NCBI GenBank assembly: GCA_018711655.1
Contig: DVIA01000015.1
Coordinates: 1 to 64,000 of the forward strand
Length of the DNA stretch: 64,000 bases
Origin: Candidatus Pullichristensenella avicola
GTDB taxonomy: Bacteria; Bacillota; Clostridia; Christensenellales; Aristaeellaceae
Direction of reading: 5' to 3'
Shown here: positions 4,346 to 48,059 of the stretch, one piece after another
How the letters are laid out: each line of letters opens with the position of its first letter
How positions within the stretch are numbered: position 1 is the first letter of the stretch
Translations under genes and position numbers: made by a program
Notes under the pieces: generated by a model
Told to the model about the DNA's origin: nothing
Databases searched by the model: none
What the model saw: the letters and a program-made list of their open reading frames with translations, nothing else

Positions 4346-4395
4346 GCGTATCTCCTCCATGCGTTCGTGATAGTGCGGACCGGTTTCCTCCATAT

Positions 4396-4424
4396 ATTAT
4401 CATATTTTCGGCCATGGCTGTCAA
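4396..4424 (-). promoter_or_regulatory. Promoter of the isomerase-like gene
   Basis: On the minus strand, TTGACA (4419-4424), a 17-nt spacer and GATAAT (4396-4401), about 45 nt upstream of the chosen ATG. Confidence 0.8.
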
Positions 4425-4508
4425 GAAGCAATTTTGCGAAAAAAGGGTAGAATCCTTCGCCGCGCCGCGGTTCGGCGATTTTCTAACCTTAAGTTAGCCG
4501 GAAGGGTC

Positions 4509-4537
4509 TTGTAATCGCGGCGAAAATGTGTCATAAT
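4509..4537 (+). promoter_or_regulatory. Promoter of the CAT/E2-like gene
   Basis: TTGTAA (4509-4514), a 17-nt spacer and CATAAT (4532-4537), followed by the ribosome site AGAGGAG before the ATG at 4570. Confidence 0.7.
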
Positions 4538-4569
4538 AGTATGTATCAAATCGCAAAAGAGGAGATGCT

Positions 4570-5418
4570 ATGTTCGGCTACCGCCCCGACGGTCACCCCA
4601 TTCCCGAGTATGTGGATCCGATCGTGCAGTTTACGCCGTTTATCATGACCACGCGCAACGACGCGCAGAATTTCGTGACCTTCCCCGTAGAATACAAGCC
4701 GTTGGCCGACTACATCCGCGAGCATCGCGACGCGGAGGAACCCATCAGCTTTATGACCATCCTCATCGCCGCCTATGTGCGCGCCGTGGGCAAGCATCCG
4801 GAATTGAACCGCTTCGTGGTGGGCAAGCGCCTTTATGCCCACAAGGACATCAGCATCTCCTACATGGTGCTGCGCGAAACGAACGACGGCCGGCTGGACG
4901 AGGCGGCCATCAAGCTGCACCTTCTGCCTACGGACACCATTTTCGACGTCGCCCGCAAGCTGAACGAGCAGATTCGCATTGCCCGCAAGCCGCAAAACAA
5001 GAACGGCACGGTCGCTTTCGCGCGCCGTTTTCTGAAAATCCCGCTCGTGCCGTGGCTGCTGGTGGGGCTGATCAAGCTGCTGGATCGCTTTGGTTTCATG
5101 CCGGGCAAGATCATCGAGGTTTCGCCGTTCCACTGTTCGCTGTTTGTGACGAATATGATGTCGATCAACCTGCCCTCGATCTACCACCACCTGTACAATT
5201 TCGGCACCTGTTCCCTGTTTTTGTCGCTGGGCCGGCCGGAGCGGCAGGTGATCGCCAACAAGGAGGGCAAAGCCGTGCGCCAGCTGATGATTCCCGTCGG
5301 CGCCGTGACCGACGAGCGCGTCTGCGGCGGGGCGTCCTATGCGGTCGCCATGCGCACGCTGCTCAAATACATGCTCAACCCCAAAGCGCTGGAAACCCTG
5401 GAAGAGATGGAGGAGTGA
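4570..5418 (+). CDS. CAT/E2-fold acyltransferase-like protein lacking the catalytic histidine
   Basis: A 282-residue protein resembling the catalytic domain of 2-oxoacid dehydrogenase E2 subunits and chloramphenicol acetyltransferase. The fold is suggested by the N-terminal segment, the SFMTILIAAYVRAVGKHPELNR helix split around residues 60-81, and the C-terminal VTDERVCGGASYA at 246-258. In active enzymes that last motif reads DHRxxDG; here His is Glu249 and the second Asp is Gly253. No lipoyl domain is present and no E1 or E3 genes are nearby, so it is not part of a dehydrogenase complex. It may be a binding protein or use different chemistry. It is monocistronic with its own promoter and terminator. 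Confidence 0.75.
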   Translation: MFGYRPDGHPIPEYVDPIVQFTPFIMTTRNDAQNFVTFPVEYKPLADYIREHRDAEEPISFMTILIAAYVRAVGKHPELNRFVVGKRLYAHKDISISYMVLRETNDGRLDEAAIKLHLLPTDTIFDVARKLNEQIRIARKPQNKNGTVAFARRFLKIPLVPWLLVGLIKLLDRFGFMPGKIIEVSPFHCSLFVTNMMSINLPSIYHHLYNFGTCSLFLSLGRPERQVIANKEGKAVRQLMIPVGAVTDERVCGGASYAVAMRTLLKYMLNPKALETLEEMEE

Positions 5419-5440
5419 CCGGCCCGCGAACGGGCGTTTC

Positions 5441-5480
5441 AAAAAGGAGGGAGACGGTATCGCGCCGTCTCCCTCTTTTT
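5441..5480. terminator. Bidirectional terminator between convergent genes
   Basis: Stem GAGGGAGACGG/CCGTCTCCCTC (5447-5457 with 5465-5475) with AAAAA on the left and TTTTT on the right. It serves the acyltransferase-like gene on the plus strand and the permease gene on the minus strand. Confidence 0.88.
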
Positions 5481-5515
5481 GCGTGAACGCGCCAAGGGCG
5501 TTTGCCCGCGCCGCC

Positions 5516-6844
5516 TTACATGCCCCAAACCAGCCAGATGTAGATGTATCCCGCCAGCACGGCAGAAAGCGTGAAGGGCACGCCGATGCGCAGGAAATCG
5601 CGCAGGCCGACCGTTTCGCCGTTTTTGCGCAGAATGCCGATGGCGGCGATGTTGGCGCTGGCGCCGATGGGCGTCAGATTGCCGCCCAGCGTCGCGCCGG
5701 TGAGCAGGCCGAAGTAGAACACATAGGGCGGCATGCCCGCGCCGCCGTCCATCAGCGCCGCAATGCCCTGCACGACCGGCAGCATGGTGGCGACATAGGG
5801 AATGTTGTCAATGAACGCCGAGAGCAGCACCGAGGCAAAGACGATCAGCGTATACAGCAGGAAGGGATTGTCGCCGGAGACGCGGTAGAACAGGTCCGCC
5901 GCCGCGTCGATCACGCCCGCAGTGCGGATGCCCTCGATGACGATGAACAGGCCGAACAGCAACAGCAGCGTGTCCTTGTCCAGGTCCTTGAGAACGCGCA
6001 GGAACGTGCCGCCCGAATGCCGGCGCAAACAGTCGCGAACGATGCCGATCAGGCACAGCCCTACGCAGATCAGGCCGCTGCGCAGGTTGTAAACGGCCAG
6101 CAGCGTCGGGTTTTCCGGATCGGGCAGGAAGGAGGCGACGATGAGCAGGGCCACCGTGCCGATCATCAGCCAGGAGGGGACGTAGTCCGTCACCTTTGTT
6201 TCCACCACGGCGGAGATCTTCTGCGTGTCGCGGCGGAAAAGCACCAGCAGCGCCACCAGCGAGGCCAGCGCGCCCAACTCCACGCCCCAGAAGATGCCCG
6301 GACGGCCCTGCATCCAGAAGAAATCGAGGAAGTTCATGCCGGCAAAGCTGCCCAGGAGCATGCTGGTGGTGTCGCCCACCATCGTCGCCGCGCCCTGCAG
6401 GTTCGAGGAAACGGCGATGGCGATCAGCACCGGTACCGGAGAGATCTTCAATTTGCGGGAAATGGCCAGGCCCACCGGCGCGACCATCAGCACCGTGGCC
6501 ACATTGTCCACAAAGGCGCTGATCACGCCCGCGAACAGCGCCAGCGCCGTCACCGCCCACTTGACGTTGGGCACGCGCACGATCAGCTGTTCGGCCAGGT
6601 AGGCCGGCATGCGGCTGTCGATAAACAGCGTCACCAGGCCCATCGTGCCGGCGATCATCAACAGCACGTTGTAGTCCACCGCCGCCAGCGCGCCCAGCGG
6701 CGAGAGGTCGTATACGCCCAGAAGGCCCAAAACGACGAACACCGCCGCGCTGCTCAGCGCGATGATGGGACGGTATTTTTGCAGGGTGAGCATCAGCGCG
6801 TATGTCAGCAGGAAGATGCCCAGAGCCACATACATGGTAGACAT
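5516..6844 (-). CDS. SLC13/ArsB-type ion transporter permease
   Basis: A 442-residue polytopic membrane protein with about 11-12 hydrophobic helices, of the ion transporter superfamily that includes ArsB, NhaD and SLC13 carriers. The duplicated signature is visible: AFVDNVATVLMVAPVG in the first half and AFIDNIPYVATMLPVV in the second, and GGNLTPIGASANIAAIG near the end. These hairpins normally bind substrate and cation. Substrate could be arsenite, a dicarboxylate or a proton/sodium pair; with no arsR, arsC or carboxylate genes nearby I cannot choose. I took the ATG at 6844 because GGGAGGAAC precedes it; an upstream in-frame ATG would add 30 hydrophilic residues. Confidence 0.83.
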   Translation of the reverse strand: MSTMYVALGIFLLTYALMLTLQKYRPIIALSSAAVFVVLGLLGVYDLSPLGALAAVDYNVLLMIAGTMGLVTLFIDSRMPAYLAEQLIVRVPNVKWAVTALALFAGVISAFVDNVATVLMVAPVGLAISRKLKISPVPVLIAIAVSSNLQGAATMVGDTTSMLLGSFAGMNFLDFFWMQGRPGIFWGVELGALASLVALLVLFRRDTQKISAVVETKVTDYVPSWLMIGTVALLIVASFLPDPENPTLLAVYNLRSGLICVGLCLIGIVRDCLRRHSGGTFLRVLKDLDKDTLLLLFGLFIVIEGIRTAGVIDAAADLFYRVSGDNPFLLYTLIVFASVLLSAFIDNIPYVATMLPVVQGIAALMDGGAGMPPYVFYFGLLTGATLGGNLTPIGASANIAAIGILRKNGETVGLRDFLRIGVPFTLSAVLAGYIYIWLVWGM

Positions 6845-6956
6845 GTTCGTTCCTCCCAATTTTTCTCTTGCGCCTTCCGCGGCGGTCGCATGGGCGCAGA
6901 CGCCGCCGGAAGGATGCGCAGCGCCCCGCCGCACGGCGTTTGCGCTGCCGGCTTAC

Positions 6957-6966
6957 AGTATAGCAC
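6957..6966 (-). promoter_or_regulatory. Extended -10 promoter of the permease gene
   Basis: On the minus strand, TGCTATACT (extended -10, TGN-TATACT) about 110 nt upstream of the ATG; no good -35 is seen. Confidence 0.5.
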
Positions 6967-7075
6967 GTTCGCAATTAAGATGCTGCGAAGATTGAAAGGT
7001 CATGCGTAATATGTTTGCAAAGAGATCAATGCGCGCGCAAATACAGAAGGCGGATTTTCAGGAAAGCGCCGGCAA

Positions 7076-7107
7076 AACAGAAAAGCCCGCCGCCCAGGGG
7101 CGGCGGG
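7076..7107 (-). terminator. Terminator of the VanX-like gene
   Basis: Stem CCCGCCGCC/GGCGGCGGG (7086-7094 with 7099-7107), followed on the minus strand by CTTTTCTGTTTT. Confidence 0.8.
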
Positions 7108-7142
7108 ACGAGGGACGGCTGCTGCGGCGCTTTGCCAAAATT

Positions 7143-7745
7143 TCAGGCGAGCGGAAAGTCGAAATATGTGTCCGGATACGGCTCGCGCCGCAGGGAATAG
7201 TGCCACCATTCGTTTTTGTAGGGCGCAAAGCCGCATTCTTCCATGATCGCCTTCAAAAGCAGGCGGTTGCGCGCGGCCGGTTCCGCCACCCGGGCGCCGT
7301 GGTGCGAAATCTCATCCATGAGGTCGAAACCGCCGCCCATTTCAAGCGGAAGGCCGTCCGGGCGCGCCAGCGTCAGATCGACGGCGCCGCCGCGGCTGTG
7401 GCCGGAGCGCGCCGCCACATAGCCCAGCGGCACGATCTGCGCCTTGGAGATGTTGGGGTAGTGCCTTGCCTTGGTTCGGCCGTCCTCCGGGGCGGCGCAC
7501 CAGCGAAGGAAGCAATCCACGGCCCGCTGGGGCCGGTAGGCGTCCCACACGAGCAGGCGCAGGCCCTCCCGCCGCGCCCGTTGCGCGGCGCGGACAAGCC
7601 CCGCCGCCAGTTCCTCCGTGCCGGCGACGCGGTTGACGCCGTAGCCGTCCACCGCCGCGCCGGTGAAATTGTCGCTTGAGGCGTACTTTGCGTCCCAGAA
7701 CAGGGAAGGGACGGCCTCGTCCAGCCATACAAAACCTGCGTGCAC
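7143..7745 (-). CDS. D-Ala-D-Ala dipeptidase (VanX-like, M15D)
   Basis: A 200-residue zinc dipeptidase that cleaves D-alanyl-D-alanine. Diagnostic residues are present: SGHSRGGAVD (zinc ligands His116 and Asp123), EWWHY (base Glu179, zinc ligand His182) and DAYRP (Arg71). No signal peptide is seen with the chosen start, so it should be cytoplasmic. I chose GTG at 7745: AAAGGAG lies 8 nt upstream and the protein then starts where VanX does; a longer frame from an ATG at 7850 would add 35 unlikely residues. No vanH, vanA or vanB ligase genes are adjacent, so this looks like a chromosomal housekeeping or recycling dipeptidase and not a resistance cluster. Confidence 0.87.
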   Translation of the reverse strand: MHAGFVWLDEAVPSLFWDAKYASSDNFTGAAVDGYGVNRVAGTEELAAGLVRAAQRARREGLRLLVWDAYRPQRAVDCFLRWCAAPEDGRTKARHYPNISKAQIVPLGYVAARSGHSRGGAVDLTLARPDGLPLEMGGGFDLMDEISHHGARVAEPAARNRLLLKAIMEECGFAPYKNEWWHYSLRREPYPDTYFDFPLA

Positions 7746-39926: not shown

Positions 39927-39983
39927 GGCTGCCATTCGACACGCCGGAACGCTTTGCAAAACCGGCGACAGGAGGCTGTTGAC

Positions 39984-41315
39984 TTGTTTCCCAAACTGTT
40001 GATCGCCAACCGGGGCGAGATCGCCGTGCGCGTCATTCGCGCCTGCAAGGAGATGGGTATCTCCACAGTAGCGGTGTTTTCCGAGGCCGACCGCGACGCC
40101 TTGCATGTTTCGCTGGCCGACGAAAGCGTCTGCATCGGCCCGCCCAGCGCTTCGGGCAGTTACCTGAACATGCCCGCCGTGCTCTCTGCCGCGGTGCTCA
40201 CCGGCGCGCAGGCCATCCACCCCGGCTACGGCCTGCTTTCTGAAAACGCGCGCTTTGCCGAATTGTGCGCGCAGTGTCATATCAAGTTCATCGGCCCTTC
40301 GGCGGAGGTCATCCGCCGCATGGGCGATAAGGACGAGGCCCGGCGTACCATGCGCGCGGCGGGCGTGCCCGTCGTGCCTGGTTGCGACCTGGTGGAAAAC
40401 GTGGAACAGCTGCGCGCCGAGGCGGAGAAGATCGGCTATCCGCTTTTGATCAAGGCCCGCTCCGGCGGCGGCGGCCGCGGTATCCGCCGCGTGGACGGCC
40501 CGGAGGAACTGGAGCGCGCCTTTCTTTCCGCCACCGCCGAGGCCCAGAGCGCCTTCGGCGACGGCGCCGTGTACATGGAAAAGCTGCTGGAAAACGTCAA
40601 GCATGTCGAAGTGCAGGTGCTCTGCGATTCCCACGGCCATGTCGTCACCCTTGGCGAGCGCGAATGCTCCATGCAGCGCAAGCATCAGAAATTGATCGAG
40701 GAAAGCCCCTCTCCGGCGGTGGACGGGGCCCTGCGCATCAAGATGCTCGACGCCGCCGCCCGCGCCGCCCGCGCCGTGGGCTACGAGGGCGTGGGCACGG
40801 TGGAATTTCTTCTGACGAAGAACAAAGAGTTCTACTTCATGGAAATGAACACCCGATTGCAGGTGGAGCACCCCGTGACGGAACTGGTCACCGGCATAGA
40901 CCTTGTCAAGTGGCAGATCCGCGTGGCCGCCGGCATGGAGCTTCCCTTCCGGCAGGACGACATACAGATTTCCGGCCACGCCATCGAATGCCGCATCAAC
41001 GCGGAAAACCCCGCCGAGAACTTCCGCCCCTGCGCCGGCAAGGTCACGCTTCTGCATGTGCCGGGCGGGCCGTGGGTGCGGTTTGATACGGCGCTGTATC
41101 AGGACTATACCATTCCGCCGTTCTACGATTCCATGATCGCCAAACTCATCGTTCATGCGCCCACGCGCGCCGAGGCCATCCGCAAGATGCAGGCGGCGCT
41201 GTGCGAAATGGTCATCGAAGGCGTGGAACACACCGGCTGGATGCAGGCCGACCTGATTTCCGAGCGCGGCTTCGAGGACGGCAGTTACACCACCGACTAT
41301 CTCAGCGGGAGGTAA
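39984..41315 (+). CDS. accC: Biotin carboxylase of acetyl-CoA carboxylase
   Basis: ATP-dependent carboxylation of biotin on AccB. The 443-residue ATP-grasp protein has LLIANRGEIAVRVIRACKE at the start, HPGYGLLSENA, the glycine-rich KARSGGGGRGIR, and MEMNTRLQVEHPVTE. The start is TTG at 39984 with GGAGG 8 nt upstream; no nearer ATG fits. Confidence 0.94.
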   Translation: MFPKLLIANRGEIAVRVIRACKEMGISTVAVFSEADRDALHVSLADESVCIGPPSASGSYLNMPAVLSAAVLTGAQAIHPGYGLLSENARFAELCAQCHIKFIGPSAEVIRRMGDKDEARRTMRAAGVPVVPGCDLVENVEQLRAEAEKIGYPLLIKARSGGGGRGIRRVDGPEELERAFLSATAEAQSAFGDGAVYMEKLLENVKHVEVQVLCDSHGHVVTLGERECSMQRKHQKLIEESPSPAVDGALRIKMLDAAARAARAVGYEGVGTVEFLLTKNKEFYFMEMNTRLQVEHPVTELVTGIDLVKWQIRVAAGMELPFRQDDIQISGHAIECRINAENPAENFRPCAGKVTLLHVPGGPWVRFDTALYQDYTIPPFYDSMIAKLIVHAPTRAEAIRKMQAALCEMVIEGVEHTGWMQADLISERGFEDGSYTTDYLSGR

Positions 41316-41318
41316 CGC

Positions 41319-42185
41319 ATGCTCACCAGAAACCTCTTCCGCCGCCCGCGCATCAAACTGGAGGACGCGGGCGAGATCGACGCCCATCTTCCGGAGATCC
41401 CCGAGGAATTGTACACGGCCTGCCCGGTGTGCAAGGCCATGAGCGCGGCGGACGAACTGCGCAGAAACGCCAGCGTCTGCCCCAAATGCGGCCACCACTT
41501 CCGCATCAGTGCCCGCCGTCGCGTGGAACTGTTCTGCGATGAAGGCTCGTTCGGGGAGATGTGGGCGACGCTGCACGGCGAGAACCCCATCGGCTTTGAG
41601 GGGTACGAAAAAAAGCTCGCCCACGCCCGCGAACAGTCTGGCGAGATCGAGGCCGTTATCACCGGCGAATGCAGGATCGACGGCGAACCTGCCTGCGCCT
41701 TTTTCATGGAGCCGTCGTTCATGATGGCGTCCATGGGCACGGCCGTGGGCGAGAAGATCACCCGCCTGTTCGAATACGCAATGGAAAAGCGCCTGCCCGT
41801 GGTCGGCTTTTGCGCCTCCGGCGGCGCGCGCATGCAGGAGGGCATCCTCTCGCTGATGCAGATGGCCAAGACCACCGGCGCCATCAAGCGCCATTCGGAC
41901 GCAGGGAACCTCTTCATCGCCGTGCTGACCGACCCCACCACCGGCGGCGTCATGGCCAGTTTCGCCATGGAGGGCGATATCGCCATCGCCGAGCCGAACG
42001 CGCTGATCGGCTTTGCCGGCCCGCGCGTCATCGAACAGACCATCCGCCAGAAGTTGGCCCCCGGCTTTCAGCGCGCGGAATTTCTGCTGGAGAAGGGGTT
42101 TGTCGATATGATCTGCGACCGGCGGGAGATGAAGGAGCGCATCGGCGCCCTTCTGCGCCTGCATCGAAGGGGGGCGGAGGCGTGA
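41319..42185 (+). CDS. accD: Acetyl-CoA carboxylase carboxyltransferase subunit beta
   Basis: A 288-residue crotonase-fold protein. The N-terminal zinc finger is formed by CPVC and CPKC, and the active-site region GFCASGGARMQEG is clear. Starts 3 nt after accC and overlaps accA as GTGA. Confidence 0.94.
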   Translation: MLTRNLFRRPRIKLEDAGEIDAHLPEIPEELYTACPVCKAMSAADELRRNASVCPKCGHHFRISARRRVELFCDEGSFGEMWATLHGENPIGFEGYEKKLAHAREQSGEIEAVITGECRIDGEPACAFFMEPSFMMASMGTAVGEKITRLFEYAMEKRLPVVGFCASGGARMQEGILSLMQMAKTTGAIKRHSDAGNLFIAVLTDPTTGGVMASFAMEGDIAIAEPNALIGFAGPRVIEQTIRQKLAPGFQRAEFLLEKGFVDMICDRREMKERIGALLRLHRRGAEA

Positions 42186-42961
42186 AGGCGTATGAATGCG
42201 TGCAGGCCTCGCGCGCCAAGGGGCGGCCGACGGCGCTTGCCTACATCGCCGCCATGATCGACGGCTTTGTAGAAATGCACGGCGACCGCCGCTTCGGCGA
42301 CGATCCCGCCGTGGTGGCCGGCGTCGGCTACTTAAGCGGCAGGCCCCTCACGGTGGTGGGCATTGAAAAGGGCGGCGATACCGCCGAAAAGGTGCGCCGC
42401 AACTTTGGCTCCGCCAACCCCGAGGGCTATCGCAAGGCGCTTCGGCAGATCAAGCTCGCTGAAAAATTCCATCGCCCGGTTCTGTGCCTGGTGGACACTT
42501 CGGGCGCCTTTTGCGGCGTCGGCGCCGAGGAACGCGGCCAGGGCGAGGCCATCGCCGAAAACATGTACGAACTGATGACGGTAAAAACGCCGGTGATCAG
42601 CATTGTGATCGGCGAGGGCGGCAGCGGCGGCGCGCTGGCGCTGGCCGTGGCCGACGAGGTGTGGATGCTCGAGGACGCCTATTATTCGGTCATTTCGCCC
42701 GAGGGCGCGGCCAGCATCCTCTGGAAAGACGCGGGACGCGCCCGGGAGGCCGCGGAAAGCCTGCGGCTGACCGCGCAGGATCTGCTGCAGTTCGGCGTCG
42801 TTGAAAAGATCGTCGCCGCCGCCGATTCGCGGGAGAAGGGCATGCCGCGCCTGCAACAGGCGCTGACGGAGGCCTTTGCCCGCCTCGAAAGCCTGGACAC
42901 AGCGGCGCTGCTTGAAAAACGTTACCGCAAATTCCGCGATATAGGGGGTGGGGAAGCATGA
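42182..42961 (+). CDS. accA: Acetyl-CoA carboxylase carboxyltransferase subunit alpha
   Basis: A 259-residue partner of AccD. It has EMHGDRRFGDDPA, LVDTSGAFCGVGAEERGQ and GEGGSGGALALAVAD. It is a little short at the N-terminus relative to E. coli AccA (319 residues), which is usual for the streptococcal type. GTG start with GGGGCGGAGG upstream. Confidence 0.93.
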   Translation: MKAYECVQASRAKGRPTALAYIAAMIDGFVEMHGDRRFGDDPAVVAGVGYLSGRPLTVVGIEKGGDTAEKVRRNFGSANPEGYRKALRQIKLAEKFHRPVLCLVDTSGAFCGVGAEERGQGEAIAENMYELMTVKTPVISIVIGEGGSGGALALAVADEVWMLEDAYYSVISPEGAASILWKDAGRAREAAESLRLTAQDLLQFGVVEKIVAAADSREKGMPRLQQALTEAFARLESLDTAALLEKRYRKFRDIGGGEA

Positions 42962-43782
42962 TCGCAATCGTGACCGACAGCACGGCCTATCTCAATCACG
43001 ACGAAGCGGTGGAAATGGGCGTGGTGATCGTTCCCATGAGCTACTCCTTCGAGGGCGGCCCCGCTTTGAACGAGGGCTGTATCGAAAGCGACGACCATGC
43101 CGAACGGCAGGTGGCCGCGGGCATCGACCATGTCCATACCTCCCAGGCGCCGCTCTCGGGCTTTTTGAACGCATTTCGCAGGCTGCGGCGCGCGGGCTAT
43201 GAGATTCTCTGCCTGACGATCTCCTCGCGCCTGAGCGGCACCTATGCAAACGCCGTGCTCGCCGCAAAGGAACTGGGCGGCAGCCACATCGAGGTGGTGG
43301 ATTCGCTCACCACCTGCTCCGGGCTTTACCTGCTCATTCGCGAGGCGCGCATGCGCATTCGCGCGGGCGCAAAGCTCTCGGCGGTGGCCAGGGAAATGTG
43401 CGAACTGCGCAAACGCGTGCGCATGTGTTTTTCCGTGGACGACATGACGCCCCTGCGCCGCAGCGGGCGGTTGGGCAATGTGCGCATGTCCATTTCCACG
43501 GTGCTCAACATCAAACCCATTCTGGAACTGCGCGACGGAGCCATCGTGTCCTCCGGCCTGGCGCGCGGGCGCGTGGAGCAGGGGCGCAGGCTGTGCGCTT
43601 TCTGCGAAAACGTCGGCGGGCAGATCGTCGTCAACAGTTTTCTGGCCGACGAGGCGGCGGCGCGGCTGACCGTACAACTGGCCCGCGACGACCGCGAGAT
43701 CGAACGCCGGCGCGTCGGCCCGGTGTTGGGCGCGCACCTGGGCGCGGGCTGCGTGGGCGTGTGCTACATCGAGCGCGCGTAG
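42958..43782 (+). CDS. DegV-family fatty-acid-binding protein
   Basis: A 274-residue protein of the DegV/FakB family, which binds a fatty acid and presents it to the kinase FakA for phosphorylation. It has IVTDSTAYL at the N-terminus, HTSQAPLSGF, TISSRLSGTYANA and the RRSGRLG and NIKPILEL segments. ATGA overlap with accA makes it the last gene of the fatty acid operon, so uptake of exogenous acids may be co-regulated with synthesis. No fakA is in the window. Confidence 0.9.
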   Translation: MIAIVTDSTAYLNHDEAVEMGVVIVPMSYSFEGGPALNEGCIESDDHAERQVAAGIDHVHTSQAPLSGFLNAFRRLRRAGYEILCLTISSRLSGTYANAVLAAKELGGSHIEVVDSLTTCSGLYLLIREARMRIRAGAKLSAVAREMCELRKRVRMCFSVDDMTPLRRSGRLGNVRMSISTVLNIKPILELRDGAIVSSGLARGRVEQGRRLCAFCENVGGQIVVNSFLADEAAARLTVQLARDDREIERRRVGPVLGAHLGAGCVGVCYIERA

Positions 43783-43873: not shown

Positions 43874-43902
43874 TTGAACGCCGTCGCCTTTGATGTTATA
43901 TC
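43874..43902 (+). promoter_or_regulatory. Promoter of the binding-protein/sensor-channel locus
   Basis: TTGAAC (43874-43879), a 17-nt spacer and TATATC (43897-43902), about 65 nt upstream of the ATG. Confidence 0.6.
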
Positions 43903-43970: not shown

Positions 43971-44762
43971 ATGAGAACACTGGCGAAAATGGCGAAAACG
44001 GCCCTGTGCGTGTTTGTGGCGCTGGCGCTGCTGGGCGCGGCGGCCGGCGCGGAAACGCTGCGCGTGGGCGTGCGCGACGACATCATCGACTTTGGCTTCT
44101 ACAACGAGACCACCGGCAAGTACTATGGCCTGGAGATCGACCTGGCGGCGGAATTGGCCGCGCGGCTGGGGTACGACGAGGTGGAGTATATCACCGTCAT
44201 GCCCGATACGCGCAAGGAGATGCTTTTGAACGGCGAGGTGGACGTGATCGTCGCCACCTATTCCATCGCCGACGGCCGCGAGGAAAACTTCGACTTTTCC
44301 GCCCCCTATTACGAGGACGAGACGGTCATCATGGTGGAAAAATCGACGATGTTTGACGACATTCACGACCTGCAGGGCATGAACATCGGCATCGTCAACG
44401 GCACCAACGCCGGCCCGCTGCTTGCGCAGAAACTCTACGACGAGGGCATCATCACCGACGTGGTGGTGGAAAACACCGACACCTTCACCCAGTACGAAGG
44501 CGCCTGCGTCACCAAGACCGAGCGCTATGCCGACCTGGATACGTTGCTGGAAACCGGCGAGATCGACGCCGCCTGCATGGACGCCTGCATCGCCGAAACC
44601 TATATGAACGACCAGCGCGAGTTCCTCAACGTCTCCATCGCCCATCAGGAATACGGCGTGGCCACGGTGAAGGATTCCGCCCTGAGCGCGCCGGTTGCCG
44701 AAGCCGTGCAGGCCATGCTGGACGACGGCACCATCGACCGCCTCATCGACAAGTGGAATTAG
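43971..44762 (+). CDS. Orphan amino-acid-type extracellular solute-binding protein
   Basis: A 263-residue exported binding protein of the SBP_bac_3 family (type used by polar amino acid ABC importers and by receptor modules). A signal peptide (about 1-27) has no lipobox cysteine, so it may be released or remain in the wall. Family signatures: LRVGVRDDIIDFGFYN, YYGLEIDLAAELAARLG, DTRKEMLLNGEVDVI, ENFDFSAPYYED and the C-terminal DDGTIDRLIDKW. No permease or ATPase gene is near. It lies 15 nt before a two-Cache sensor that continues into an MscS channel, so it may present a ligand to that protein. GGAAGGAG precedes the ATG. Confidence 0.88.
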   Translation: MRTLAKMAKTALCVFVALALLGAAAGAETLRVGVRDDIIDFGFYNETTGKYYGLEIDLAAELAARLGYDEVEYITVMPDTRKEMLLNGEVDVIVATYSIADGREENFDFSAPYYEDETVIMVEKSTMFDDIHDLQGMNIGIVNGTNAGPLLAQKLYDEGIITDVVVENTDTFTQYEGACVTKTERYADLDTLLETGEIDAACMDACIAETYMNDQREFLNVSIAHQEYGVATVKDSALSAPVAEAVQAMLDDGTIDRLIDKWN

Positions 44763-44777
44763 AAAGGGGGAGCGACT

Positions 44778-46955
44778 GTGACCGCAAGACTCAAGCGCAA
44801 GGCGGCGATCATGATCGCCGTGGAACTGATTTTTCTGGCGCTGGTCGGCGTGCTGCTGACCAACATGCAGACCGAGCTTTCCCTGGATGACCAGAGGACC
44901 GGCATCGCCGAAAAGCTCGAGGAAATGGACGAGCTTCTCCAGGCTGCGGACGCTTCGGGCGTGGAAATCACCGAGGCCTTTGACGAAGAAAACCGCGGCA
45001 AGGTCGGCAGCGTGGCCTTCATGTACCAGAACGGCGTGCTTGCCGGCTATACCCGCGCCAACATGCAGCTTGCCGGCGACCTTCTGGATGTGGACAACGT
45101 GCTCATTCTCGACACGCAGGGCCGCGTGATCGCCCAGGCCGGCTCTACTCCGGCGGATTTTACCCGCAGCCGCTACAACCAGCTGCGCACCGTGTTTGAG
45201 GATGGCCAGCCCTCCGCCGCCTTTGAGGTGGATTTCGGCGACGTCTGCTACCGCTACTACGGCGCGCGCATTGACGAAAGCGCCATGGTCGTGGTGGAAA
45301 AGAACGCAGAAACGCTCTATCACCGCCTGGAGGCCTCCTCGACGCTTGCCAGCGCCCTGAAAAACGTCACCGTCGGCCTCAACGGCTTCAGCTTCGCCAT
45401 TTCCGCCAAGGATTACACCTTCCTCTATTACCCGGACGAGACGGTGATCGGCCAGGACGCCATCAGCATGGGCCTTTCCGTCGCCACCCTGGAGGACGGA
45501 AGCTTCGGCTGGATGGACATTCACGGCGAGCGCCTTTACGGCGGCGCGACGCTGCTGGACGATACCTATATCCTCTGCGCGGTCACTTCCGACGAGATCC
45601 TCGCCTCGCGCAATACCACGGTGACCATCATCCTCTTTGCCGTGTTTGTGGCCTTGACGCTGGTGGTGGCCTACGCCTTCTTTATCCTCCACGACCTGCG
45701 CGAGGAAAAGAGCAGGCGCATCGTCGGCAAGCTCTGTTTCGGCACCTCCGTGGCCCGCAAACTGGCTTCGGTTTCGCTCATCGGCCTGATCGCCATTCTC
45801 GTCGTTTCCTTCTATATGCAGTCAATCTTCGCCCTCTCGCGCCAGTCCATGAGCAACAACCAGCGCCTGCAGGAGATTTCCCAGCGCATCGACCAGTACG
45901 CCGCCCAGCGCGATGAACTGGCCGCGGAGTATGACGAACTGTACCTCAACAAGGCGCACATCGCCGCCTATATCATTGACGCCAAGCCCGAACTTGCCGA
46001 CCGCGAAAAGCTGGCGGAATTGAGCGAGATCCTTTCGCTGGAATCGGTCAACGTATTCAACCAGGCCGGCGTACAGGTGGCGACCAATTCGCCCTACACG
46101 CGCTTTACCGTCAGCAACGACCCCGAGGATCAGTCCTACGAATTCAACAAGCTGCTCCTCGGCGTGGACAGCCTTGTGCAGGAGGCCCGCCCGGACGATG
46201 TTTCCGGCGATTTCCACCAGTACATCGGCGTGACCCTGCGCGATGAGGCGGACAACCCCAACGGCTTTGTGCAGATTTCCGTCATTCCCTCGCGGCTGAA
46301 GGTTACCGAGGAGAACATGGAGATCGGCAACATCCTCTCCGGCATCCGCATGGGCAACGAGGGCGTGGTTTCGGCCGTGGACAAGGCCGATGGAACCATC
46401 GCCTATCACCCCAACAGCCGCTACATCGGCCGCGACGCCTACGATTACGGCATCACCGACGAAGAACTCGTGGACGGCTACACCGGCTATGTCACCTTCG
46501 CGGGCACCCGCTATTTTGCCTCCACGCTGGAAACGGACAACTACATCGTCTTTGCCGCCGTGCCTGAGGCCAATATCGGCACCGCCCGCCTGCCGGTAAC
46601 GCTGGTGGCCGGCGCGGCCAGCCTGGTGGCGCTGCTGCTGGTCATCCTCATGCTCTGCCTCTACCGCGACCGGCCCGGCAAGGCTGTCACCAAGGATAAG
46701 GAAGAGAAGAAGTACGGCAAGACCATGGTGGACGTGGTCATGCCCGACGGCTCGGTGAAAAAGACCGAGGCCGCCGCCAGCCGCTGGCGCAACACCTTCA
46801 TCGGCTGGGAGGACAAGACGCCGGAGCAGAAGCTCTTCAGCGTGCTGCGCGGTCTGTTGGGCGCCTTTGCGGTGGTCATGTGCCTGGCGGCGCTGATGCG
46901 CGATCAGATCTTTGACGAAAGCTCCGTCGTCCTCTTCGTGCTGGATGGCAAGTGA
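44778..46955 (+). CDS. Two-Cache-domain membrane sensor, N-terminal part of an interrupted MscS channel
   Basis: A 725-residue membrane protein. Layout: TM about 10-29; Cache-like outer domain about 30-280; TM about 281-304; TM about 330-353; long helix then a second Cache-like domain about 356-604, with GTIAYHPNSRYIGRDAYD; TM about 605-628; linker; TM about 686-706. It ends at TGA 46953-46955. The same frame continues past that codon without another stop into the MscS gene at 47007, and the residue lost reads GK-stop-AHGLNIF, where Trp (TGG) would be a one-base change. I infer a single sensor-channel protein of about 1,019 residues, broken here by mutation or sequence error. GTG start with GGGGGAG upstream. 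Confidence 0.8.
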   Translation: MTARLKRKAAIMIAVELIFLALVGVLLTNMQTELSLDDQRTGIAEKLEEMDELLQAADASGVEITEAFDEENRGKVGSVAFMYQNGVLAGYTRANMQLAGDLLDVDNVLILDTQGRVIAQAGSTPADFTRSRYNQLRTVFEDGQPSAAFEVDFGDVCYRYYGARIDESAMVVVEKNAETLYHRLEASSTLASALKNVTVGLNGFSFAISAKDYTFLYYPDETVIGQDAISMGLSVATLEDGSFGWMDIHGERLYGGATLLDDTYILCAVTSDEILASRNTTVTIILFAVFVALTLVVAYAFFILHDLREEKSRRIVGKLCFGTSVARKLASVSLIGLIAILVVSFYMQSIFALSRQSMSNNQRLQEISQRIDQYAAQRDELAAEYDELYLNKAHIAAYIIDAKPELADREKLAELSEILSLESVNVFNQAGVQVATNSPYTRFTVSNDPEDQSYEFNKLLLGVDSLVQEARPDDVSGDFHQYIGVTLRDEADNPNGFVQISVIPSRLKVTEENMEIGNILSGIRMGNEGVVSAVDKADGTIAYHPNSRYIGRDAYDYGITDEELVDGYTGYVTFAGTRYFASTLETDNYIVFAAVPEANIGTARLPVTLVAGAASLVALLLVILMLCLYRDRPGKAVTKDKEEKKYGKTMVDVVMPDGSVKKTEAAASRWRNTFIGWEDKTPEQKLFSVLRGLLGAFAVVMCLAALMRDQIFDESSVVLFVLDGK

Positions 46956-47006
46956 GCGCACGGCCTCAACATCTTCGCCGTCACCGGCAGCCTCATCATC
47001 GTCTGC

Positions 47007-47837
47007 GTGACCAGCGTCGTCACCATGATCGTGCAGAAGCTGCTCACGCTCATGGCCCGCACCTTCGGGGCCAAGGGCGAGACGGTCTGCCGCCTGCTTA
47101 AGAGCCTTGTCAAGTACATCTCCGTCATTGCCATGCTCTACTTCTGCCTGGCGCTCTTGGGCATCGACACCGCCACGCTGCTGGCCTCGGCCGGTATCCT
47201 CACCTTGATCGTCGGCCTCGGCGCGCAGACGCTGGTTTCCGACATCCTCGCCGGCCTTTTCATCATCTTCGAGGGCGAGTTCCAGGTCGGCGACATCGTC
47301 ACCGTCGGCGACTGGACGGGCACCGTGGTGGAGATCGGCGTGCGCACCACCAAGATTCAGGACGGCAACCAGAACATCAAGGTCATCAGCAACAGCAACG
47401 TCAGCGGCGTCATCAACAAAACGCGCGACTACTCCTTCAGCAGCGTCGATCTGGGCATCGAGTACAGCGAATCGCTGGAGCGCGTGGAGAACATCCTCCA
47501 GAAGGAGTTCCCCAACATCCGCAAGCACCTGCCCAACATCATCGACGGCCCCTTCTACAAGGGCGTGGTCGCGCTGGCGGACAACAGCGTCATCCTGCGC
47601 ATCGTTGCGCTGTGTACCGAGGCCAACCGTGGGCAGATGGACCGGGACCTCAACCGAGAGATCAAGCTCATCTGCGACAAGTACGACATCAACATCCCCT
47701 TCCCGCAGATCGTCGTCAACCAGCCCACGGTCATCAAGCAGGCCAGCGAGTGGGAGAAGGAACAGGCGCGCAAGTTTACCGAGGAACAGCGCGAACTGTC
47801 TGCCAACATCATGAACGAGGACGAGGAAGAACACTAG
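47007..47837 (+). CDS. MscS-family mechanosensitive channel, C-terminal part of the interrupted gene
   Basis: Carries a typical MscS core: pore helix ASAGILTLIVGLGAQTLVSD, then LAGLFIIFEGEFQVGDIVTV and the beta domain WTGTVVEIGVRTTKIQD, with the mixed alpha/beta C-terminus. From the GTG at 47007 it would have 276 residues. No ribosome site precedes that codon, and the open frame extends back to the TGA at 46953, so independent translation is doubtful; it most likely belongs to the upstream sensor. A strong terminator follows. Confidence 0.78.
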   Translation: MTSVVTMIVQKLLTLMARTFGAKGETVCRLLKSLVKYISVIAMLYFCLALLGIDTATLLASAGILTLIVGLGAQTLVSDILAGLFIIFEGEFQVGDIVTVGDWTGTVVEIGVRTTKIQDGNQNIKVISNSNVSGVINKTRDYSFSSVDLGIEYSESLERVENILQKEFPNIRKHLPNIIDGPFYKGVVALADNSVILRIVALCTEANRGQMDRDLNREIKLICDKYDINIPFPQIVVNQPTVIKQASEWEKEQARKFTEEQRELSANIMNEDEEEH

Positions 47838-47847
47838 ACCAACCCCG

Positions 47848-47882
47848 CGCCCCGGAGAGCCAGCGCTTTCCGGGGCGTTTTT
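47848..47882 (+). terminator. Terminator after the MscS gene
   Basis: Stem CGCCCCGGA/TCCGGGGCG (47848-47856 with 47869-47877) followed by TTTTT. Confidence 0.85.
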
Positions 47883-48059
47883 GCGCTGAGGACACCGCGC
47901 CCGCGCGGATGGGTCGAGGCGATAGCGCCCCGGCGCGCCGGGAGCCCTGCGCGCGCAAAAAGCGACGGACAGCCGCCGGCCTGCCCGCCGCAGAGCGCTT
48001 GCAAGAGCCTCAAACGGCCCGTGGGCGTTCCCAACGCGCATATTCCGAGAAATGCGCGC

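Follow-up and report, generated by a model that had tools for sequence, protein, structure and literature searches.

We analyzed a window of 64,000 nucleotides (nt) from Candidatus Pullichristensenella avicola (contig DVIA01000015.1, positions 1 to 64,000), in which a gene for a solute-binding protein (SBP) directly precedes a gene for a channel of the MscS superfamily. The SBP gene (43971 to 44762, forward strand) encodes 263 amino acids with a signal peptide lacking a lipobox, and its product belongs to the polar amino acid family SBP_bac_3 of Pfam (E value 6.9e-27). After a spacing of 15 nt, a GTG at 44778 opens the channel gene (44778 to 47837, forward strand; 1,019 codons, ending in TAG), whose frame has a single break, an in-frame TGA at 46953 to 46955 (forward strand; codon 726). 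The first open part (44778 to 46955) encodes 725 amino acids and makes up the sensor portion, and the last part (46956 to 47837; 293 codons) carries the MscS domains. A first-pass annotation, made by a model from the letters alone, had described an orphan binding protein followed by two Cache-like domains running in one frame into a complete MscS pore and beta domain, with the gene broken by a TGA; each of these elements was borne out by the searches described below. It had also delimited the unit by a shared promoter and a terminator. The terminator, noted at 47848, corresponds to a 14-bp hairpin followed by T5 (47847 to 47883, forward strand; -29.3 kcal/mol, z score -5.3), whereas a scan for sigma-70 promoters returned none at 43874. 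No riboswitch or other known RNA element was found in front of the unit.

The channel was assigned to the MscS superfamily by its domains and fold, and channel conductance is predicted. Pfam matched the region from 46956 to 47837 to MS_channel_2nd (PF00924; E value 1.7e-15) and MS_channel_1st (PF21088; 3.3e-5), and the C-terminal domain PF21082 (7.9e-4) narrowly missed its curated cut-off, with its alpha/beta elements present in the model. Both the search for relatives and the fold prediction used the read-through protein, in which the TGA was assigned a residue. The AlphaFold2 model, built with 72 relatives, had a mean predicted local distance difference test score (pLDDT) of 79 and gave the order transmembrane helix (TM), dCache, TM, TM, dCache, TM, cytosolic linker, four TMs, and MscS beta and C-terminal domains; hydrophobicity likewise indicated eight TM helices. 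In the N-terminal half, a helix (residues 2 to 84) and a dCache domain are followed by a TM (271 to 306), a second helix (323 to 402), the second dCache domain, and a TM (604 to 627). The C-terminal half begins with a TM (682 to 706) and continues with MscS TM1 (732 to 762), TM2 (765 to 793), the pore helix region (798 to 831), and the beta and C-terminal domains. On the DNA, the MscS module spans 46971 to 47732 (forward strand), with the TM3 pore helix at approximately 47169 to 47270 and the beta domain at 47229 to 47423. When the whole channel was compared with solved structures by Foldseek, TtMscS (E value 4e-13) and EcMscS (4e-12) ranked first, and dCache receptors came next.

The two ectodomains lie at 44868 to 45587 (residues 31 to 270) and 45822 to 46571 (residues 349 to 598), both on the forward strand. 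At an E value of 0.01 or lower, Pfam dCache_1 was matched by the second ectodomain in 36 of 41 relatives (best 3e-12) and by the first in 20 of 41 (best 5e-8); the window channel's own match is weak (1.6e-3, below the cut-off). The first ectodomain modeled alone (pLDDT 88) adopts a double PAS-like fold with a long N-terminal helix, and its top Foldseek matches were the dCache sensors PctB, PctA, Tlp3, and McpB, with E values down to 6e-10. The two dCache modules are homologous to each other (hhalign probability 100, E value 2e-40, 268 columns), and we therefore consider that a TM-dCache unit was duplicated. Between the second module and the channel lies the cytosolic linker (46659 to 46820, forward strand; residues 628 to 681), which has low model confidence and contains the conserved stretch AASRW..W...TPEQK. 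Conservation peaks in the MscS beta and C-terminal region (mean 0.77), and the ectodomains are conserved as well.

A profile (A2) of the C-terminal half of the channel, scanned over 84,980 species genomes, found 318 relatives, of which the best 80 loci were kept; channel counts out of 80 refer to this set. The frame is full length and uninterrupted in 75 of the 80, isolate genomes included, so the fusion of dCache and MscS domains is real. Two of the other five are truncated by contig ends (L048 and L120), and three appear broken (L053, L061, and L123). In two genomes of the same genus as the window's, the frame is unbroken and 91% identical, and the SBP gene again lies 15 nt upstream. The set covers Clostridia (Lachnospiraceae, Oscillospiraceae, and Christensenellales-like genomes such as Candidatus Pullichristensenella) and Coriobacteriia (Gordonibacter, Eggerthella, Enteroscipio, Raoultibacter, Collinsella, and Olsenella).

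At the sequence level, this two-dCache channel and an SBP_bac_3 protein, either secreted or lipid anchored, are inherited together. In 76 of the 80 loci, the gene immediately preceding that of the channel, in the same orientation, encodes an SBP_bac_3 protein; these loci come from both classes and thus from gut bacteria of two phyla, and two of the four loci without the SBP gene are cut by contig ends. These 76 SBPs are 38 to 87% identical to that of the window, and the gap to the channel gene has a median of 11 nt and is -13 to 20 nt in 74 of the loci. The pairing persists at L138, in another class, where the channel is only 30% identical to that of the window, and at L140 at least the C terminus of an SBP is kept upstream. 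Pairwise distances of SBPs and channels are correlated (Mantel r = 0.63, P = 0.001); their trees have 31 of 65 splits in common, compared with 0.1 after relabeling, and the Coriobacteriia form a single split in both. As a control, we examined 27 loci of Cache-less MscS relatives, none of which has this SBP within flanks of about 1.5 kb. Because these bare relatives lack it, the SBP appears to track the dCache domains and not the pore alone. At L034, a second, different SBP family accompanies a channel of this kind: a gene for an NMT1-like lipoprotein (6395 to 7453, reverse strand) overlaps with its start the stop of a dCache-MscS gene (ATGA), with no ATP-binding cassette (ABC) partners in view. 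Separately, just downstream of the fusion in G012, a secreted, sugar-type SBP-like protein is encoded (L033, 6669 to 8027, reverse strand), which had no Pfam match and a best PDB match at an E value of 0.22.

The orphan status of the SBP also holds among relatives. No polar amino acid ABC permease was found in any of the 76 loci (flanks up to 10 kb, less where contigs end), and the ABC genes present in these flanks encode unrelated ATPases only (24 to 41% identity); the linked permease and ATPase of an ABC amino acid importer are therefore absent.

The SBP is predicted to bind aspartate or glutamate. Its closest solved structure is PEB1a of Campylobacter, and it shows weak sequence matches to GluA ligand-binding domains. 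From the PEB1a contacts, a list that we partly presume, the acidic amino acid site is predicted to comprise R35, R81, T96, S98, R103, Y186, and D204. In GlnH of Mycobacterium tuberculosis, the aspartate backbone is held by Ser164, Arg169, and Asp250, and its side chain is contacted by Arg147, Trp232, and Thr162; the side-chain contacts are reported to be conserved across proteins of equal specificity (PMC6069109). Through the PEB1a alignment, which together with a numbering offset underlies this mapping, S98, R103, and D204 correspond to the former three residues and R81, Y186, and T96 to the latter. None of R35, R81, R103, Y186, and D204 varies among the 69 aligned SBPs. The motif R-x-W-Y is that of dCache_1AA amino acid sensors, and R.W[YF] was found in the ectodomains of none of the 72 dCache channels searched, which makes the SBP the likelier reader of the amino acid. 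About one-third of the SBPs lack a lipobox (a simple pattern scored 27 of 69 as lacking it, at least three of which look like missed lipoboxes); these belong to Oscillospiraceae-type loci and the window, and their hosts are presumed to be monoderm. A nonanchored SBP in a monoderm would have to be retained at the cell by a membrane partner.

The TGA lies in the outer loop right before MscS TM1, in a codon that is an invariant column among 71 aligned relatives. We read it as a stop codon, because TGA closes 23 of the 50 long open reading frames in the window; recoding as a sense codon was ruled out on the same ground. Because the stop precedes TM1, a product of 725 amino acids would retain both sensors but lack the entire pore, so that at face value the channel protein would not be made in the window genome, where the SBP gene is intact. 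Ratios of nonsynonymous to synonymous substitution rates (dN/dS) are approximately 0.14 for both genes, indicating purifying selection, and 0.11 to 0.17 both upstream and downstream of the TGA, so that the stop reflects a loss of recent date or else an error in the sequence. Between 47100 and 47800, nucleotide identity to the two same-genus genomes is 0.96 to 0.99, compared with about 0.86 in the flanks; this jump could reflect recombination, conversion, or assembly mixing. At L006 (G012), L007 (G008), L123, and L053, the channel copies likewise carry a disruption, either a single in-frame stop or a frameshift; the sites differ, and all of these assemblies are drafts. The window genome contains no other MscS-type gene and one MscL gene, and the locus gave no plasmid match. 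Upstream of the unit (39927 to 43782), genes resembling those for biotin carboxylase, two acetyl coenzyme A carboxylase carboxyltransferase subunits, and DegV, as judged by eye from their translations, run in one direction.

Building on the observed architecture, pairing, co-inheritance, constraint, and ligand-site conservation, we propose, with a probability of roughly 0.6, that the two genes form a sensory channel unit in which the SBP detects an acidic amino acid and acts via the dCache domains to tune or gate the MscS pore. The SBP would close on aspartate or glutamate outside the cell and, in its ligand-closed form, dock on one dCache domain; the change would travel through the TM helices and the linker to the TM1-TM3 bundle, and the pore would open, close, or have its tension threshold shifted. 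The output would be a flux of ions and small solutes, possibly of glutamate itself as in MscCG-type channels, and turgor or amino acid release would follow outside conditions. GlnH-GlnX and LuxP-LuxQ are precedents for an SBP acting through a membrane sensor. A more specific form, in which the SBP is a Venus-flytrap co-receptor of a ligand-gated MscS channel, that is, a split ionotropic receptor of gut bacteria whose tandem dCache domains open a large solute pore and join amino acid sensing with turgor and solute release, falls somewhat short of even odds in our estimation. The first-pass reading of one channel system with a dedicated SBP is supported by the homologues that join Cache domains and MscS pore in one frame, by the lack of ABC permeases beside the SBP in the 76 loci, and by the conserved adjacency; its term ligand-gated is an inference on function.

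Several observations weigh against the proposed unit. One is the broken channel copy of the window itself. Some more distant dCache-MscS fusions (L035, L036, L139, L141, and L142) have no adjoining SBP, so the SBP is not obligatory for this architecture. At the position of T96, whose counterpart in GlnH contacts the ligand side chain, 56 of the 69 SBPs carry Cys (46) or Ala (10), and the ligand may therefore differ among them. In G636, which holds one of these distant fusions, two genes of the Cache-MscS type face each other (L141, 1356 to 4232, forward strand, and 4348 to 7245, reverse strand; no adjoining SBP), and a further copy lies on another contig.

The genomic surroundings suggest a link to osmotic balance or amino acid release. 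In 16 of the 80 loci, from both phyla (L049, L050, L052, L054 to L059, L071, L087, L089, L090, L099, L109, and L122), an aquaporin (MIP) gene is no farther than about 1.2 kb from the pair, and in 14 of them the distance is at most 300 nt; it is mostly upstream on the same strand and, in four Coriobacteriia, head to head. Aquaporin genes also adjoin the homologues in G012 and G008 (L033 and L007), and none was found in the window genome. In Corynebacterium and Bacillus methanolicus, glutamate leaves the cell through channels of the MscS type (PMC6110860, PMC12541555). Together with the acidic amino acid predicted for the SBP, these points would also fit a plain osmotic valve or amino acid exporter gated by tension only, in which the SBP retrieves or buffers leaked amino acids and the dCache domains read something unrelated. 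We regard this as unlikely: retrieval requires a transporter, yet none of the 76 loci has a permease linked to the SBP, and the SBP goes with the dCache domains and is missing beside bare MscS relatives.

The conserved linker motif might instead point to a non-conducting receptor, with the MscS part serving as an oligomeric scaffold or using the linker and C terminus to signal to a partner in the cytosol. This is improbable, because conservation is highest in the MscS beta and C-terminal portion, as expected for a working pore, and no conserved gene for a signaling partner was found beside the pair. It is about as improbable that the SBP serves a distant amino acid ABC transporter and is merely cotranscribed with the channel. 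Its nearest homologues outside the clade (37 to 39% identity; G012 and G013) do reside in complete ABC operons, but adjacency without a permease in two phyla, the common tree splits, and the NMT1-like SBP taking its place at L034 all argue against this. Finally, that the fusion is exclusive to this draft of 76 contigs is contradicted by the 75 unbroken relatives, and although the unusually similar tract from 47100 to 47800 and the constraint on the rest of the frame leave room for the TGA being a sequencing or assembly error without meaning for the system, we give an artifact very little weight.

The sensory channel unit would matter because MscS channels are mostly known as tension-gated emergency valves, and the reason for the large extra domains of many members is open. 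It offers a widespread and cultivable case, occurring in Gordonibacter, Eggerthella, Enteroscipio, Collinsella, Blautia, and others. Its MscS pore bears a chemical sensor whose fold is known, for which a ligand is predicted and which has an SBP dedicated to it, so that chemical gating becomes directly testable; if the proposal is true, gut amino acids would be tied to bacterial turgor or amino acid release.

The MscS superfamily (EcMscS and TtMscS, and also MscK, YbiO, and YnaI) has the same TM1 to TM3, beta domain, and C-terminal domain, whereas the channels described here add two N-terminal dCache ectodomains with four TM helices, one connecting TM, and a partner SBP. The bCNG channels belong to this superfamily, and MscK and bCNG are ligand modulated via other domains. 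The dCache chemoreceptors and kinases PctA, PctB, Tlp3, and McpB have the same dCache fold and long N-terminal helix but another output domain, and the R.W[YF] motif is missing here. Ionotropic glutamate receptors, including GluR0, likewise couple an SBP_bac_3-type amino acid-binding fold to a channel; their binding fold lies within the channel chain and their pore is K+ channel-like, whereas in the present unit binding protein and channel are separate chains and the pore is of the MscS type. The ectodomain of LuxQ is PAS/Cache-like. In LuxP-LuxQ, a periplasmic binding protein likewise acts through the ectodomain of a membrane protein (PMC3376566), although the output is a histidine kinase and the binding protein comes from another family. 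In the GlnH-GlnX-PknG system of Actinobacteria, a stand-alone aspartate/glutamate SBP of the same family, with the same ligand residues, is likewise encoded beside a membrane sensor, but the sensor domains of GlnX are four-helix bundles and its signal goes to a kinase (PMC6069109), whereas the membrane partner described here joins dCache domains to a channel. A census of Cache domains does not mention MscS (PMC4822843), and our searches of open-licence papers for Cache with MscS, SBP with MscS, and MscS architectures gave nothing on point, a negative that speaks only weakly for novelty. Within the open papers searched, this real and widespread unit is undescribed; what is new in it is the combination of an MscS channel, a sensory front end, and a binding protein dedicated to it.

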